The notes under the pieces were generated by a model. That model saw only the letters and a program-made list of their open reading frames with translations, searched no databases and had not been told where the DNA came from. Below, piece by piece: positions 4,622-55,729 of a DNA stretch of 64,000 nucleotides. Numbering within the stretch: position 1 is the stretch's first letter; each line of letters begins with the position of its first letter. Made by a program: the position numbers and the translations under genes. Origin of the DNA: Deroplatys truncata (Eukaryota; Arthropoda; Insecta; Mantodea; Mantidae); NCBI GenBank assembly GCA_030765065.1, contig CM060990.1, positions 460,000,321-460,064,320 on the forward strand, read 5' to 3'.

Positions 4622-5719
4622 CGTCCCGTTTCCGACGAACAGTGTTCCTCTCTCGACTAAGGCACATGTCTAACGTCAAGATTAAATTCATGTTCTCCGA
4701 GACAGTCCCCTAGATTAACTCATTTTTCAAGCAGAAATTAGGATCTCGAAGTGTTTGCATTTTGGATGCCGCGCTCTTTCTTTTCTCTTTCTGTCGCGAA
4801 GATGGCCCTTTCTTACAATTTCTCTCCATCTTCCGCCTAACACTGGTAGGGGCCCTCTTGGCATTTCGTCTTATAGTTAATGAAATTTTTATAATGCAAA
4901 TAATGTTTCATCTGTTCCCATTCAGCCGTGGTACTGCGATTCGATTACGCTGGGTTTCTCTCCTCTCCTTTCTCCTACTGTAATTTGGTAGAACGTCGCA
5001 TTTGTCAAAACATCCGTCATGATTTCATTTTTACTTCGTTACGCTTGGTAAAAAGAAAAGGGAACCTTAATGGCGAAGGCTAAGTTAGTAACAATTAAGA
5101 AACCTTGTTATGGCTACTGCTGCTCGGGGCGAATGCATCAAGAGCAGGGATTTTTGAGCCTGTATTAAGGCCATAATAAAATGCACTAACAACGTATGCC
5201 TTAGAGTGCAACCATACTTAATGTATAAAACTCTTACCGACTGAACTCTAAAGGTATTAAATTAAAGGATATACAAACCATCTGGATATACAGAATGGAA
5301 GGTGGCCTATGATCATCCGTGAATAGGATGACTCTTTGTAATCAACAGAACAAAAAATCTTAGTGCCGTTTTGCTGCTTTTAAAGAGGTTTTGAGGAAAA
5401 AAAAGGAAAATTGCTTAATATTAACTCCATTTCAAATAAAGATTTTACGAAGCTTCTATACTTTTTCAAATATTCCTCAGAGGAGATTGAAAGATAAACA
5501 TTTTCTGCATGTTTAAATACATTTTGAATTAAAACAATTCGCACGCTTACTATTATTATAAGCTTTCGAAATTTGTCTCGGTTGAATCTAAATTGTTAGT
5601 CACGAGACTACACATGACAACACTGTGAGATCAAAAGAAACGCACATCAGCTGTTTGTTTATAAAGAAGTGCACTTCAACTGTTGTTTATTGCGCTTATG
5701 GCTTGTTTTCGAAACAGCG
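4622..5719. other. Unassigned sequence
   Basis: No gene is recognised. The 5' part and left terminus of the mariner-like element that follows could lie in this stretch, but I could not find them. Confidence 0.5.
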
Positions 5720-6325
5720 GATTGTCAGTTAGAAGAAGAAATCCTTTACTTGGTAGAAGAAGATCCTGGAAGCAGCAGCTGTGGTATAGCTCGCGCTTTC
5801 GGCCTATCACATTGGACTGTTTTGAGAACATTAAAAGAAGGATTGCTACGCCCTTATCATACTCCATGGGTCCAGCATCTTTCTAAAGCGGATTATGCAC
5901 CAAGAGTAGCATTTTCCGAATGGTTTCTTCAACAAGGAGGGGACTTTACCCTCAACATTTTTGCAATGGATGAAACAGCGTTTAACAGAAATGGAGTAAT
6001 TACCATAATGCACACACCTGGGCTTACAACAATCCACACACAATAAGACAAGACAGCTTTCAGCACAGATTTTCTGTAAATGTTTGGGAAGGAAACATAG
6101 AAAACACATTAATCGGTCCGTGGATTCTTCCTCAGGCTTTAACAGGAGCCATCTATCTCCAATTTCTTCAAGCAACGTTACCAGTTCTGCTCGAGGATGT
6201 TCCCCTGGCAGTAAGAAACAATATGTGGCTACTATATCACGACGCACCTCCGCACGTAGTAAGTAGGGGCGTATGTGGCCATCTACACAACACCTACGTA
6301 GAACGCTGGAACGCTCGGAATGGAC

Positions 6326-45604: not shown

Positions 45605-45861
45605 ATAAAGCGCGGAGTATGCAGATTTTGCCAAAAATCATAATGTTTGATTTACCCTGGCCTATTAAACCCAGATAGGTGTATATAGATATACACCTAT
45701 ATATATATATATCTATATATATATATATTACTTGCCTAATTTTTAGGTTTATATACGTTTTAATGCCTTTAATACATCACGTAAAATCATAATTTTTCAG
45801 GCAAGTTAAACTGTATAATTATTCTACAATTATTTTCAGAAAAAGACTCGACTATAACATC
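45605..45861. repeat. 257-bp tandem repeat, unit 1 (intact)
   Basis: The unit begins ATAAAGCGCGGAGTATG, runs through TTTTGCCAAAAATCATAAT and an internal TA-rich microsatellite (about 45671-45729), continues TTACTTGCCTAATTTTTAGG and ends GACTCGACTATAAC. The next unit starts with the matching ATAAAGGGCGGAGTATG at 45862. Confidence 0.9.
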
Positions 45862-45970
45862 ATAAAGGGCGGAGTATGTAGATTTTGCCAAAAATCATAA
45901 TCTTTGATTTTCCCTGGCGCATTAAATCCAGGTAGGTGTATACACACACACGCACGTGTGTACATATATA
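45862..45970. repeat. 257-bp tandem repeat, unit 2, left part
   Basis: Matches unit 1 from ATAAAGGGCGGAGTATG through GGTAGGTGTATA, then a CA/GT microsatellite, and stops at the TA next to the Tc1 left terminus. Its right part resumes at 49109. Confidence 0.9.
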
Positions 45971-46900
45971 CACTTCCGTTTGTGAAAATTGCAACACCAA
46001 GAAAGAATTTCCCGAATAACTCCAAACTTGGTGGAAGTGAGAAGAGTGTGCAAGCAATAAGTGATTAGGTTTGCAGAGAGATGGGGTACGCGTAGGCCGA
46101 GCAGAGCCCTCTCGTGTCGGTCCGACAAGGTCAGTGTTGCGCACAGTGTAATAAGTGCAGAGCTGGCAACCAAGGTGGAAATAATAAAGTGAGTGCCAGT
46201 ATGCCTCGTCAACGTCAAAGGGAGCCATATCGGCAGGTGAGTGAGTTCGAACGGGGCAGAATGATCGGTCTCCGGGAAGCGGGTTTGTCACACCGTGACA
46301 TTTCGGCTCGTACAGGGCTTGCTGTTTCGACAGTGATGCGTGTGTGGAAGCAGTGGATAGATGAAAGTCGTACGCATCGAAGAGCGGGTACTGGACCACG
46401 GAACATAGTCACAGCACGGGATGACCGTCATCTTGTCCGCATGGCCATAACGGACCGTACAGCTTCATCCACAGTGTTGGCTCGACGCTGGAGCACTGCA
46501 ACAGGTGTGAACTTGTTTGCATCAACGGTTCGTCGCCGTCTGCTGCAGGTTGGACTGATTGCATGCATGCCATTACGTCCGTTTCCATTGTCCAGAAACC
46601 ACAAGCTCCTCCGACTGCAATGTGCACGTGAACACCGTCACTGGGGTGCTGAGTGGCAAAATGTAGTCTTTTCGGACGAGTCCCACTTCAACGTGTCCTA
46701 CAGTGATGGCCGCATACGTGTCCGGCGGTACCGTGGTGAGAGCAACCTGGAGGACTGCATTGTTGAGCGGCATAGCGGATAAACACAAGGTGTGATGGTT
46801 TGGGGCGCCATTGATTACAACAATCTATCTCGCCTTCTATGAATTGAGGGCACTTTGAAAACCAACCGGTAAACTAGTCGCGGGCATCCTTTCCCCAACC

Positions 46901-46931
46901 GGCTTCAAAGCGAACGGAAAGCTTTGAAGCC
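46901..46931. repeat. Subterminal perfect hairpin
   Basis: GGCTTCAAAGC (46901-46911) and its exact complement GCTTTGAAGCC (46921-46931) are separated by 9 bases. It sits about 30 bp inside the left end of the nested transposon, where subterminal transposase-binding repeats often lie. Confidence 0.85.
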
Positions 46932-47189
46932 TGACCATAAACCCATCAGTAAACGATTAGTAGGGTCTTCCCATCCCTTAAACACAACACGTGGTCCTTT
47001 CTCCAGCTCCACCAAAGCAAAGCGTTGTTGCCGGTTTTAGCAGCTGTGACTGTTCGCTCGTGCTTTTCTTCCATGTTCAGCTAAGCTTCTATATTACTTC
47101 TTCAGAGAAGTTATATAGTGTTTTACTTAGTGCAGTTTTGTAAGTTTAGCAGTGTTTAATAGTTATTAGCGTTTAATAGTTTAATTAAG

Positions 47190-47309
47190 ATGTGGAGACC
47201 TTGGGAAACGAACCAAGTTGATGCCCCTCCGGTCGCACCAGCAAGTGACCCTCTGCCGAATATCAGTAATGCCAAGACCACGAAGAAAAGGGCTACAAAA
47301 ACTGAATAA
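47190..47309 (+). CDS. Short frame in the nested transposon, unknown
   Basis: A 39-codon frame begins MWRPWETNQVDAPPVAPASD and ends in a Lys/Thr-rich tail (KTTKKRATKTE) before TAA. The Trp/Pro-rich start and basic end look more protein-like than the surrounding frames, and it could be the 5' exon or N-terminal remnant of this element's transposase. Repeat E begins almost immediately after the stop, so the frame may have been truncated by that sequence. I recognise no domain. Confidence 0.3.
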   Translation: MWRPWETNQVDAPPVAPASDPLPNISNAKTTKKRATKTE

Positions 47310-47314
47310 GCAAA

Positions 47315-47905
47315 GCCAGATTTTTATGTGTAATGTTCAAGAACATGTAGAAAAGAACCTTTTATGTGGAAAAATGTTTGTTATTGTTTTGAATTTCTCA
47401 AAAACAGCTTAACGATTTTTAGTAAAATACCGCAAGATTAAGATATTTGCAGGAAAAATAAAATTTGTATCATGAATTTTATATTCTGGGAATAACTTGT
47501 AAAATTTTCCTCGTTCTCAACTTGTTGTATTACTGGTAAATTCTAAGAGAGAGACAAAATCTTACTCTGCGTAAAATGCAATCCCGGTAAAGGACAAATT
47601 TTAGGTCAAATTGTGTTAACCATTTCCGAGAAATTTTTTGTTGTTGGTTTGAATTTTGAAATACAAGTTGGAAGTCTCTGTTTGTATTTTCCTCGTGGTC
47701 ATGCTAAGAGCATGGAATTTCAAAGTCATCATATAGTCATCTGTATTTTAAAAATCTGACTATCGCTTTAGCCTATGTATCCTTATATTTACAACGATAT
47801 GTGCAATGAAATTTTATCTTATTATTTAAGAAGTAGATAGAATAAGCTTTTGTGAAAGTAGTTTGTAGAAGAGTGAGTAGAGATAATCTTGTGAATATAA
47901 TACAT
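47315..47905 (+). repeat. Repeat E copy inside the nested transposon
   Basis: Shares TTTTATGTGGAAAAATG, TTTCTCAAAAACAGCTTAAC, the core ACCATTTCCGAGAAATTTTT (47619-47638), GTTGGTTTGAATTTTGAAAT, AGAGCATGGAATTTCAAA and the 3' block GTTTGTAGAAGAGTGAGTAG with the copy at 52.0 kb. The 5' part of the unit is missing. Confidence 0.8.
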
Positions 47906-49108
47906 AAGATTTTTTTTTTATTTTCTTTCTTTTGCCTTCGTATTTTTACTTATCCTGCATTTTATAATAAAGCTATTCATTTAAGTAAACAGAAGATGTC
48001 ATGCTTATAAATCTTACACCTTAAACAATACACAACTTCTTGTATTAGCTTTATATTAATAAAACATTGTTGTGATACAAGTGATAAAAAACTTTTTACC
48101 ATAGCTCCGCGCACAGCATAATCAAAAATGATGCTTTGATTTGGGAGTAAGAGTTCCTTTCAAAATAAATTAATATTTATGTATTTTAATTATTTAATGA
48201 TAGTCCAACAATGTATAGTTTATTCGGAACATGTTTCTAAGTTTCTCTCGGATATGTTAACATGCATTTCTATTCTTGTAGCGCAGTATATTAGTTCAGA
48301 TCATTCATTAGTTCAGTTATATTTTAAAGCGTTTGCAACTTAATTGTAATTACTATGCGATTTATAGTTATTTACATAGTTATTTTGTGTGTAAAGCAAG
48401 CAGACAAACTGCATGATTGTATTCTGTACATGTGGAAATCACCTGCAAAGTTTTGCTTTTAAATACTATTTTTAATTTTGGCAACAACGCGCATATGCAC
48501 ATGGATGTCACTAAGATTTTATGGTGCTTGCGGTTAGGGAGGGTAGGGAACAAGTGTTTGGCTACTGCACAAAGGTCGCCGCTTGGGGATCCGAAGGCTG
48601 CGATGACCATATCTAACGGTGGTTGTAGAGCCTGAGGTACCCCCCCCCCTGCATCAGGCATCTCCACAGGCCACATTTCAAAAGGACAATGTCCGGCCAC
48701 ATATTGCGAGCAATGTACAAGCCTTCGAAGATCGACGGGTACCATTGCTTCCCTGACCTGCACGTTCGCCTGACATGTCGCACATCGAACATGTCTGGGA
48801 TATGGTTGGTTGGCACCTGGTACGTCACGGTCCTCCAGTAGCCAGTGTCACGGATTTGTGGGCTCGAATACAAAATGCGTGGAGGCAAATCCCTCAGGAA
48901 TTTATTCAGAAACTTTTTGACACTTCGTATAGCAGCTCTAATTACAGCGCATGGAGGCCACACCAAATACTGAATAAGGGCTCAAAGGTCATGTATAGAT
49001 TTGAAAAATGTACCATTGGTACTTGTCATGTACCTAACCTGTGGTATTAAATTCATTGAATGTATGCGTTTCCTTCTTGGTGTTGCAATTTTCACAAACG
49101 GCAGTGTA

Positions 49109-49241
49109 TATTACTTGCCTAATTTTTAGGTTTATATACGTTTTAATACCTTTAATACATCACGTAAAATCATAAGTTTTCAGGCAAGTTAAGCTATATA
49201 ATTATTCTACAATTATTTTCAGAAAAAGACCCGACTATAAC
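49109..49241. repeat. 257-bp tandem repeat, unit 2, right part
   Basis: TTACTTGCCTAATTTTTAGG through ACCCGACTATAAC matches unit 1 (from about 45729) closely. It directly follows the TA at the right end of the Tc1 element. Confidence 0.9.
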
Positions 49242-51984: not shown

Positions 51985-52772
51985 CCTACCTGAAGAAGTA
52001 TTGTATTCCACCCAAAAATTTGATGTCGGGATTTCACCGGAAATAGATGTTTTGGGGCCCCCTGAACAAAAAAAAAGCAGTTTTAGAGAAAGCTCCGCAC
52101 GCGTGTCTGTAAAAAAAGAAATGTTCCATAAGTACCAAACTTTGTATTTAAGTTCAGCATCTTCCAAGGATGCGCCACGGAGATTTTAAAGAAAATCCCC
52201 CCCCCTCCGAAATACCTTTACATGGAAAAATTTCTGATATTTCCTATTTTCTCAAAAATGATTAACGACTTTGATTGAAGTAGTATATATTAAAGTTATC
52301 TGTAGCTCAAACAAAATCCATATCTTAAATATACTAGGAATAGTCCGTGAAGTCCTCTTTATTATGAAAGACTTTTGTGTAATTGATAAACCTTAAGAGT
52401 TAGACAAAATCTTATTACACAAAAATGTATATCTCTTAAAGCACAAAAATCATGACAATTAAATGTTTTGTAGCGCTCACCATTTCCGAGATAGTCTTTG
52501 TTATTGGTTTAAACTTCCAAATACTTATACTGTTTCAATCGGTAGGTCGTGTACGTTTACGGTCATGCAAAGAGCATGGAATTTCAAAACCATCACATAG
52601 CGACTCGCTTTTTGAAAACATGACTATCTCTTTAGCCTCTAATATTTTTCTTATGCCTACAACCGAATGTGTACATGCGCAATGAAAGTTGATCTATAGC
52701 AACAAGAAATAGATTGGAAAATAAGCATTTGTAAGAATAGTTCGTAGCAGAGCGATCAGAGAAGTTCATGTT
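51985..52772 (+). repeat. Repeat E, near-complete copy
   Basis: Begins CCTACCTGAAGAAGTATTGT and contains TTTCACCGGAAATAGATG, TTGGGGCCCCCTGAAC, AAGGATGCGCCACGGAGATT, GACTTTGATTGAAGTAG, TCCGTGAAGTCCTC and the core ACCATTTCCGAGATAGTC (52479-52496). It ends near GATCAGAGAAGTTCATG. No coding potential: the open frames 51899-52189 and 52452-52685 shift relative to the other copies. Confidence 0.85.
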
Positions 52773-53142
52773 TTTTTAGGCAGCAGACAAAGCAATTAAG
52801 TAATACCTCCCTTGGAATCAGGGGCGGAAAAATCACCATTTCCATCGTCACATAAAGGCTAAATGCTAAGCTTCTCCTGAACATTTTTGTGAACTGAATA
52901 TTCCTGCGGGGCGACAGTCACCTTACCCACCAGACCACGAATTCCCCTACATCAGGGATGTTGAAGACAATGCCAGGGTTTCTTAGCATAAAGGTAGCTA
53001 CAGGCAACAAAATTTGATTCCACTTCTGATCCAAAAGTACAACTCCAGCAGAACTGCTGAAATTCTCGTATCACATCACCGAGGCACTGTCTGCGTCCGT
53101 GCTACTACACTCCAGCTTCAATCCTTCCTATGGGTATAGTAC
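52773..53142. other. Unassigned sequence
   Basis: No gene or repeat is recognised. Confidence 0.5.
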
Positions 53143-53468
53143 ACAACATTTCAGAAAGTACTATATATCACACACACATATATATATTATAGTATATACC
53201 TATACTATCGTATATATATATTTATTATAGGGAGTTAGTAGTTAGATAGATTGACCTCCAGTAACTGGAGTATAGCACCACAAATAGGCCATTGTGGGCT
53301 CTTTGTGCACAACATTTCAGAAACTACTATATATCACACATATATATATTATCGTATATACCTATATAATCGTATATATATTTATTATAGGGAGTTAGTA
53401 GTTAGATAGATTGACCTCCAGTAACTGGAGTATAGCACCACAAATAGGCCATTGTGGGCTCGTTGTGC
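53143..53468. repeat. Tandem duplication (166 + 160 bp) with a SINE 3' end
   Basis: Unit 1 (53143-53308) and unit 2 (53309-53468) both run from ACAACATTTCAGAAA, through a CA/TA-rich stretch, GGGAGTTAGTAGTTAGATAG and CTCCAGTAACTGGAGTATAG, to CATTGTGGGCTC-TTGTGC. They differ by a few substitutions and small length changes in the microsatellite. The last part of each unit is the 3' end of the adjoining minus-strand SINE-A. Confidence 0.93.
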
Positions 53469-54945: not shown

Positions 54946-55460
54946 CCGAGTAGGATGGCTCCGCTTTAACGTCTGAGATGGCAGGTCTTGGGTTCATTTC
55001 CATTGGGCCGGCCACAATAACTATGGATTTTTTCGTGGTTTCCTCTGGTCCAATTTTACCACGAATTTCCTGCCCATCATTTCCTTTCATCTCTTTCACC
55101 TCAGCTGTTTTAGGGTTGTAGGACCAGGCAGTGGCGGTTAGTGTGTTGCGGCAGGACGGTGGAATTTGCGCTACTTAAAGACTTCTCCCAGATAATTGGC
55201 GGGACTGCTGGGTCCCCTTTCTTCCTGGGAGCTGTCTCGTCTATTTCAGCGACCCCAGGTTGCGGGTGGCTAAGGCAGGGCTAGCCGGCGTCAGGATTGG
55301 CGTCATGTTGGGACCCAGTCCTTACTAGTCGGATCTGATCAACCTTCGGGTATCCCCTTCATCCCTTCCTCCCAGGGGTCATGTTGGAAGCATAAAGGGC
55401 CCACTATGGCCTACATGCGGTGCCGTGCTCCAGTTACTGGGGGCCCCTCCGCCTGACTAT
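54946..55460 (+). repeat. SINE-A subfamily copy
   Basis: The head CCGAGTAGGATGGCTCCGCT and B box GGTTCATTTCC are diverged. The body has TTCGTGGTTTCCTCTGGTCC, TTTTAGGGTTGTAGGACCAG, GTGTGTTGCGGCAGGACGG, GTTGCGGGTGGCTAAGGCAG, CTTCGGGTATCCCCTTCATC, GGGGTCATGTTGGAAGCATA and CTCCAGTTACTGGGGGCCCC. It belongs with the copy at 53415-53960. Confidence 0.88.
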
Positions 55461-55729
55461 TCCTAACTCCTCAACGTGTTTTACATAAAATCCTTATGTG
55501 CAAACCACCACACAACTTTCTCTACCCATTACCAATTATAGGTATCCCTTATAAGGTGAACTATTTATATAAATGGTGATTATTCATTCTGCTTAGTTAA
55601 TCACCATCAACGCTTGTGTAGAAATGGTTTCAACTTAGACTGTACAGACTGGGGTACATGTGTGAAGTGGAAGCGAAACAATGGTTTATATCACAAGTCA
55701 ATTTTTGTTACTAATGAGATAATACAAAG
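55461..55729. other. Unassigned AT-rich sequence
   Basis: No gene or repeat is recognised. Confidence 0.5.

Follow-up and report, generated by a model that had tools for sequence, protein, structure and literature searches.

A young, putatively non-autonomous Sailor-type transposon nested within an old Tc1 copy in the mantis Deroplatys truncata

Among MITEs and deletion derivatives of Tc1/mariner transposons, copies that have kept their ends around an internal deletion outnumber the coding copies. Duplication of a TA and short inverted ends are common to most of the Tc1/mariner group (PMC8533490). In the published description of Sailor the spacing between D and E is about 82 residues (range 78-111), the motifs read I/VVYLDET, VIIMDNA and HCELNPIEL, the inverted ends usually begin with GT and CC, and arthropod elements are 1.8-4.4 kb long (PMC8533490). 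As portrayed there, Sailor is of modest copy number and mostly TATA-inserting, this duplication being predominant and not universal. The main text of that paper uses the term MITE 0 times and non-autonomous once, about class I, and a literature search on DD82E/Sailor found no non-autonomous Sailor family among the papers listed.

The locus described here lies at 45605-49241 of a window of 64,000 nucleotides (the whole stretch of DNA that was analysed, from contig CM060990.1 of assembly GCA_030765065.1). A sequence-only reading of this window had proposed a nest of four layers, namely a tandem repeat, a Tc1, a second TA transposon and a segment of a repeat E, with coordinates that proved exact to the base. 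As that reading had it, the outermost layer consists of two 257-bp direct units, the second of them interrupted at a TA. Self-alignment gave an intact unit 1 at 45605-45861, which serves as an empty-site control for the Tc1, and alignment placed the left part of unit 2 at 45862-45970, terminating in the target TA, and its right part at 49109-49241, preceded by the TA at 49107-49108. After rejoining of the two parts, 219 of 257 aligned columns were identical to unit 1. The outer element itself occupies 45971-49106 (3.1 kb) and is flanked by TA at 45969-45970 and 49107-49108. Its 36-bp inverted ends, located at 45971-46006 (plus strand) and 49071-49106 (minus strand), are alike at 34 of 36 positions, or at 35 of 37 if counted one longer. 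The two arms of the tandem units are unequally conserved, the right arms agreeing at 96% over 136 bp and the left arms at 83% over about 110 bp, i.e. a divergence of 4% versus 17%; part of the repeat is an AT/AC microsatellite. Conversion of the right arm could possibly underlie this difference.

The outer element resembles Tc1 (DD34E) in its inverted ends, in its TA duplication and in a D-E spacing of 34, which was found in 5 of the 19 other copies examined (a further copy carries D instead of E at that spacing, and 13 were unreadable by motif). The window copy departs from these by an insert, by a private stop and by a spacing of 33. Ahead of the private TAA stop and the insert, its transposase gene runs from 46201 to 46779 on the plus strand, Pfam HTH_Tnp_Tc3_2 being matched on 46114-46779 (1.6e-12). 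Past the insert, the gene continues at 48612-49050 (plus strand), where it contains a stop and is one codon short in the DDE region; this portion had no Pfam match alone, and a Pfam search with its piece at 48775-49047 matched no family. A search of viral contigs with the Tc1 transposase, and one of solved structures with that query, found no relative. The TAA stop was present in 1 of 20 copies (the window and 19 others). Compared with the consensus of the 19 others, the window Tc1 differs at 36 of 899 and 24 of 491 compared sites, thus 60 of 1390, and the other copies lie at 2.4-5.8% from consensus. As these distances are similar to that of the window copy, the Tc1 burst is old.

The Tc1 transposase gene is in turn split at a TA by an element of 1738 bp at 46872-48609 (plus strand), which is bordered by target TAs at 46870-46871 and 48610-48611. 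This bears out the 1.7-kb element with imperfect inverted ends that had been read from the window. The inverted ends (46872-46903 on the plus strand, with positions 1-9 variable among copies, and 48578-48609 on the minus strand) are weak but keep exact register when counted from the TA, with 20 of 32 positions alike. This in-register score was attained for 53 of 400,000 pairs of TAs drawn at random from the window, and in 2 of 200,000 shuffles. If register was ignored, the best local match between the ends scored 12, a value that shuffling attained once in 300 trials for ends of 60 bases, and 36, 112 and 186 times in 300 for ends of 200, 300 and 400 bases, respectively. Beyond about 60 bases unregistered ends are therefore unremarkable, and the evidence lies in the position of the ends and above all in the other copies. 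A reverse Helitron, with the CTAG end and a nearby hairpin as its signs, was dropped given the TA duplication and the in-register inverted ends.

The genome (4.29 Gb, 818 contigs) was searched with the left half of the Tc1, which gave 40 rows among the matches listed; 20 loci were examined, one of them being the window. In all 19 others the insert was absent, and the alignment left a gap of 3-24 bases between the two Tc1 halves. Twelve of these empty sites read CGGTACCTAACGG, one (L047) reads CGGTATCTAAC and 6 show other small differences, whereas the window reads CGGTA, then the 1738 bp, then TATCTAACGG. This comparison indicates that TA was duplicated and nothing else. A target duplication of four bases was rejected, since the empty Tc1 site shows TA alone. 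The G of the left GTA, which all of the first 10 copies have, had also been considered as a base of the element, but it precedes the left TA in only 18 of the 31 copies of exactly 1738 bp and in 20 of 40 later on, which points to a target preference. One might suppose from its place inside one Tc1 that the 1.7 kb is cargo of a Tc1 variant rather than a separate insertion. The sequence-only reading had named other Tc1 copies with the same 1.7 kb as the sign of this, and they were found in 0 of 19 cases; likewise, of 40 copies of the insert the window's own is the only one flanked by Tc1 (the flanks examined span 1.5 kb in 10 copies and some 300 bases in most of the remaining 30). Insert-free Tc1 copies and Tc1-free flanks thus refute the cargo reading, which we consider exceedingly improbable.

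The inner element is widespread as a separate insertion. With the 1738-bp query at least 40 copies, complete or almost complete, were found at 99-100% on many contigs, the window's own copy among them, besides two fragments next to one copy. A left-end pattern allowing up to 3 mismatches occurred at 986 places genome-wide and its reversed control at 0. The presence of at least 39 copies at 99-100% elsewhere, together with these 986 left ends of the family, identifies the inner element as an independent mobile element. Tc1 was seen in the examined flanks of 0 of the 39 other 1738-type copies and of 0 of 40 left-end places sampled. TA stands at the left flank of all 40 best-scoring copies. It also stands at the right flank of 39 of them; the remaining copy, L030, ends at position 1731, short of the right end. 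The 31 copies of exactly 1738 bp deviate from their consensus at 0-5 sites, and 91 of their 95 variants are singletons, which gives a star-like pattern; for the window insert, 4 of 1738 sites differ. Because the 40 copies are the best-scoring ones, their narrow spread is partly a matter of selection and the true spread is understated.

The sampled left-end places were taken from the first 100 of the 986, of which 36 following the order of the list on contig 1 (passing over two places already in the copy set and one partner end) and 4 picked for odd first letters. These 40 comprised 18 long copies, 13 of about 255 bp, 5 old ones (about 80-84%), 2 left-only or deleted and 2 partial; without the 4 picked places (n=36) the numbers were 16, 12, 4, 2 and 2. 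Long copies sampled by place (n=19) are 0.06-1.73% away from consensus, and 8 of them contain 22 extra bases at position 161. The 255-bp form consists of the first 158 and the last 98 positions with one base common at the joint; 11 of 13 are of the same length, at 0-2 sites from consensus. With regard to end-keeping internal deletions the family is thus like MITEs and Tc1/mariner derivatives, the 255-bp form taking 12 of the 36 list-order places, whereas the form in the window is large (1738 bp) and has a truncated repeat E within it. The short form was seen at L063, L066, L067, L072, L076, L091, L095 and others, and at L095 two 255-bp copies lie close by in opposite orientation. At L031 (G000:C10:220310271-220313337) the 1738-bp element adjoins a partial inverted second copy, perhaps as a result of self-insertion.

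Copies that share the ends of the inner element encode a transposase. Two of these (L064 and L100) have about 1.5 kb extra exactly at a joint in the 1738-bp form, which alignment to them places at 47362-47367 of the window, and both contain, as does L089, open frames of one transposase. A remnant of 39 codons from the start of this frame, followed by a stop, is retained in the window at 47191-47310 (plus strand), where it matches the start of the open frame in L064; a 2-base gap relative to the relatives stops the remnant frame ahead of the deletion joint. The L089 frame (416 residues) matched Pfam DDE_3 (1.9e-11), with a spacing of 82 from the second D to the E. Its motifs are IIYLDET, LIIMDNA and HCIFNPIEL, which over three motifs are four residues off published Sailor. 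A search of its own genome with this frame gave 111 rows, the best 100 scored of 315,727 candidates, and at least 16 rows besides the query's own place covered residues 1-388 or more without a stop. The same frame, used as a single-protein query that can reach only close relatives, yielded no relative in prokaryote genomes. From end to end, one coding copy spans about 3.5 kb. The two right ends of coding copies that were read are identical over 483 bp. Of 40 listed right ends that were assigned to the coding kind by their end sequence, 12 are identical over 480 bp (the query's place included) and all 40 are at 99-100%. The coding copies with DNA read are 80-83% like the 1738-bp form, and are thus its cousins rather than its direct parent, which was not found among them.

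On the basis of the spacing and motifs of these relatives, the inner element is filed as a putative non-autonomous deletion form of the Sailor type (DD82E). It might alternatively derive from an ordinary Tc1/mariner or pogo element unrelated to Sailor, as TA duplication and short inverted ends are typical of most Tc1/mariner elements (PMC8533490). This is very unlikely, considering that the relatives sharing its ends encode the spacing of 82 with IIYLDET, IIMDNA and HCIFNPIEL, and that the 39-codon remnant starts that same DD82E frame. Compared with Sailor as published (PMC8533490), the spacing of 82 residues, the closely matching catalytic motifs and the coding element of about 3.5 kb are alike. 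In contrast, TA is duplicated here and not TATA (from the empty Tc1 sites and 39 of 39 two-ended copies), deletion forms predominate in our sample, and two element-borne bases, variable at the left, stand between TA and the conserved end; there are 986 left ends of all forms, as against at most 341 published copies, which were counted by a stricter criterion. As to the terminal bases, 4 of 13 coding copies carry CC on the left, and their right end reads TATG-GTTGTC in 2 of 2; the 1738-bp form has CT at the left after TAAA and GT at the right after TATG. The points that are new relative to the published description are a high-copy, putatively non-autonomous family of the Sailor type, a 2-bp TA duplication versus TATA, and a hypervariable left terminus.

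In the 40 near-identical copies, deviating cells numbered 18 of 360 at positions 1-9 and 117 of 69,160 at positions 10-1738, with one in the last 12 positions. The left 9 bases accordingly vary about 30 times as much as the interior, and the right terminus is nearly constant (L001-L040, with L101-L115 for alleles). Among these 40 copies the left end reads AACTAGTCGC in 30 and TACTAGTCCC in 4, six other haplotypes occurring once each. The left ends of transposase-carrying copies read AACTAGTCGC in L106, AACTAGTCCC in L107 and L109, TACTAGTCCC in L111 and AAGTAGTCTC in L113-L115; L101, L102, L103 and L112 have AA, TA, AT or TA ahead of CCTGTCTC, and in L108 and L110 four bases separate the nearest TA from CTAG. 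For L106-L115, of which 36 bases each were read, the interiors are known from the transposase match alone. In 1 of the 13 left ends read, that of L106, the exact terminus of the 1738-bp form was found. A plain reading of this variety would be two or three master lineages, together with selection on the end. It is conceivable, if rather doubtful, that the left terminus is rewritten during transposition, the ends being exchanged or re-made by short-tract conversion or by error-prone fill-in at a tail left exposed. A right end that hardly varies argues against simple damage to the tail. The two bases between TA and the conserved end do belong to the element in the Sailor-type family here, a point that may be relevant to the TATA duplication reported for Sailor. 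If ends are indeed rewritten, the published TATA duplication of Sailor may partly consist of TA plus an element-borne pair.

The innermost layer is a truncated repeat E at 47361-47883 (plus strand), recognized by similarity to other E copies, so that the segment which had been noticed inside the inner element is indeed there. It is 66% identical to 52217-52762 of the window, where parts of two further places also match, and copies of the repeat differ by 30-34%. In the coding relative L064 positions 1927-2458 match repeat E at 67%, including a part that is absent from the 1738-bp form. Its presence already in coding relatives, together with a divergence of about one third among its copies, makes repeat E the oldest piece of the nest though the innermost. 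The layers had been taken to give a time order, and this holds from the tandem unit through the Tc1 to the second TA element; it fails for repeat E, which did not come last but was carried in. The locus thereby shows that depth of nesting need not follow order in time, as a transposon can bring an old repeat into a young layer. We infer that repeat E was an independent repeat captured by the element. That its copies are instead worn remains of the same Sailor-type family would accord with the presence of E at the corresponding place in L064, L100, L077 and the 1738-bp form. This we regard as improbable: copies E1-E3 of the window and those beside L067 and L083 had no match to the element ends in the searches made, E is reversed beside the coding part of L089, and its similarity ceases inside the element on both sides.

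With regard to relative age, the 60 of 1390 sites at which the Tc1 deviates from its own consensus, compared with the 4 of 1738 of the insert, indicate that most of the decay of the Tc1 preceded the insertion. Judged by these divergences, the Tc1 was already old when the inner element landed. A history in which an old Tc1 in a nest received a young Sailor-type insert carrying an older repeat E is very probable. In this history the ancient repeat E would have entered an ancestral cut-and-paste transposon of the Sailor type (DD82E), 3' of the transposase gene. One such element may then have lost about 1.5 kb, a stretch running from about codon 58 of its transposase to a point within repeat E, and would thereby have become non-autonomous with both ends kept. 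Independently, a 257-bp stretch would have been duplicated in tandem, and a Tc1 (DD34E) would have entered a TA of the second unit and decayed. Very recently the non-autonomous element would have spread genome-wide, presumably mobilized in trans by the transposase of full-length relatives, and one copy would have inserted at GTA in the dead Tc1 transposase gene, with duplication of TA.

What emerges is a recent and wide spread of a TA-inserting, putatively Sailor-type deletion form in a 4.3-Gb genome, beside coding copies. The occurrence of this form next to uninterrupted coding frames and identical right ends makes the genome suited to studying the movement of Sailor in trans. Elsewhere in the window, an open frame at 5618-6043 has a weak match to a Tc3-type helix-turn-helix (0.017, below the cut-off) and is perhaps another decayed transposase. 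In addition, two tandem copies of about 165 bp at 53139-53468 are 93% alike and partly related to 55390-55470.
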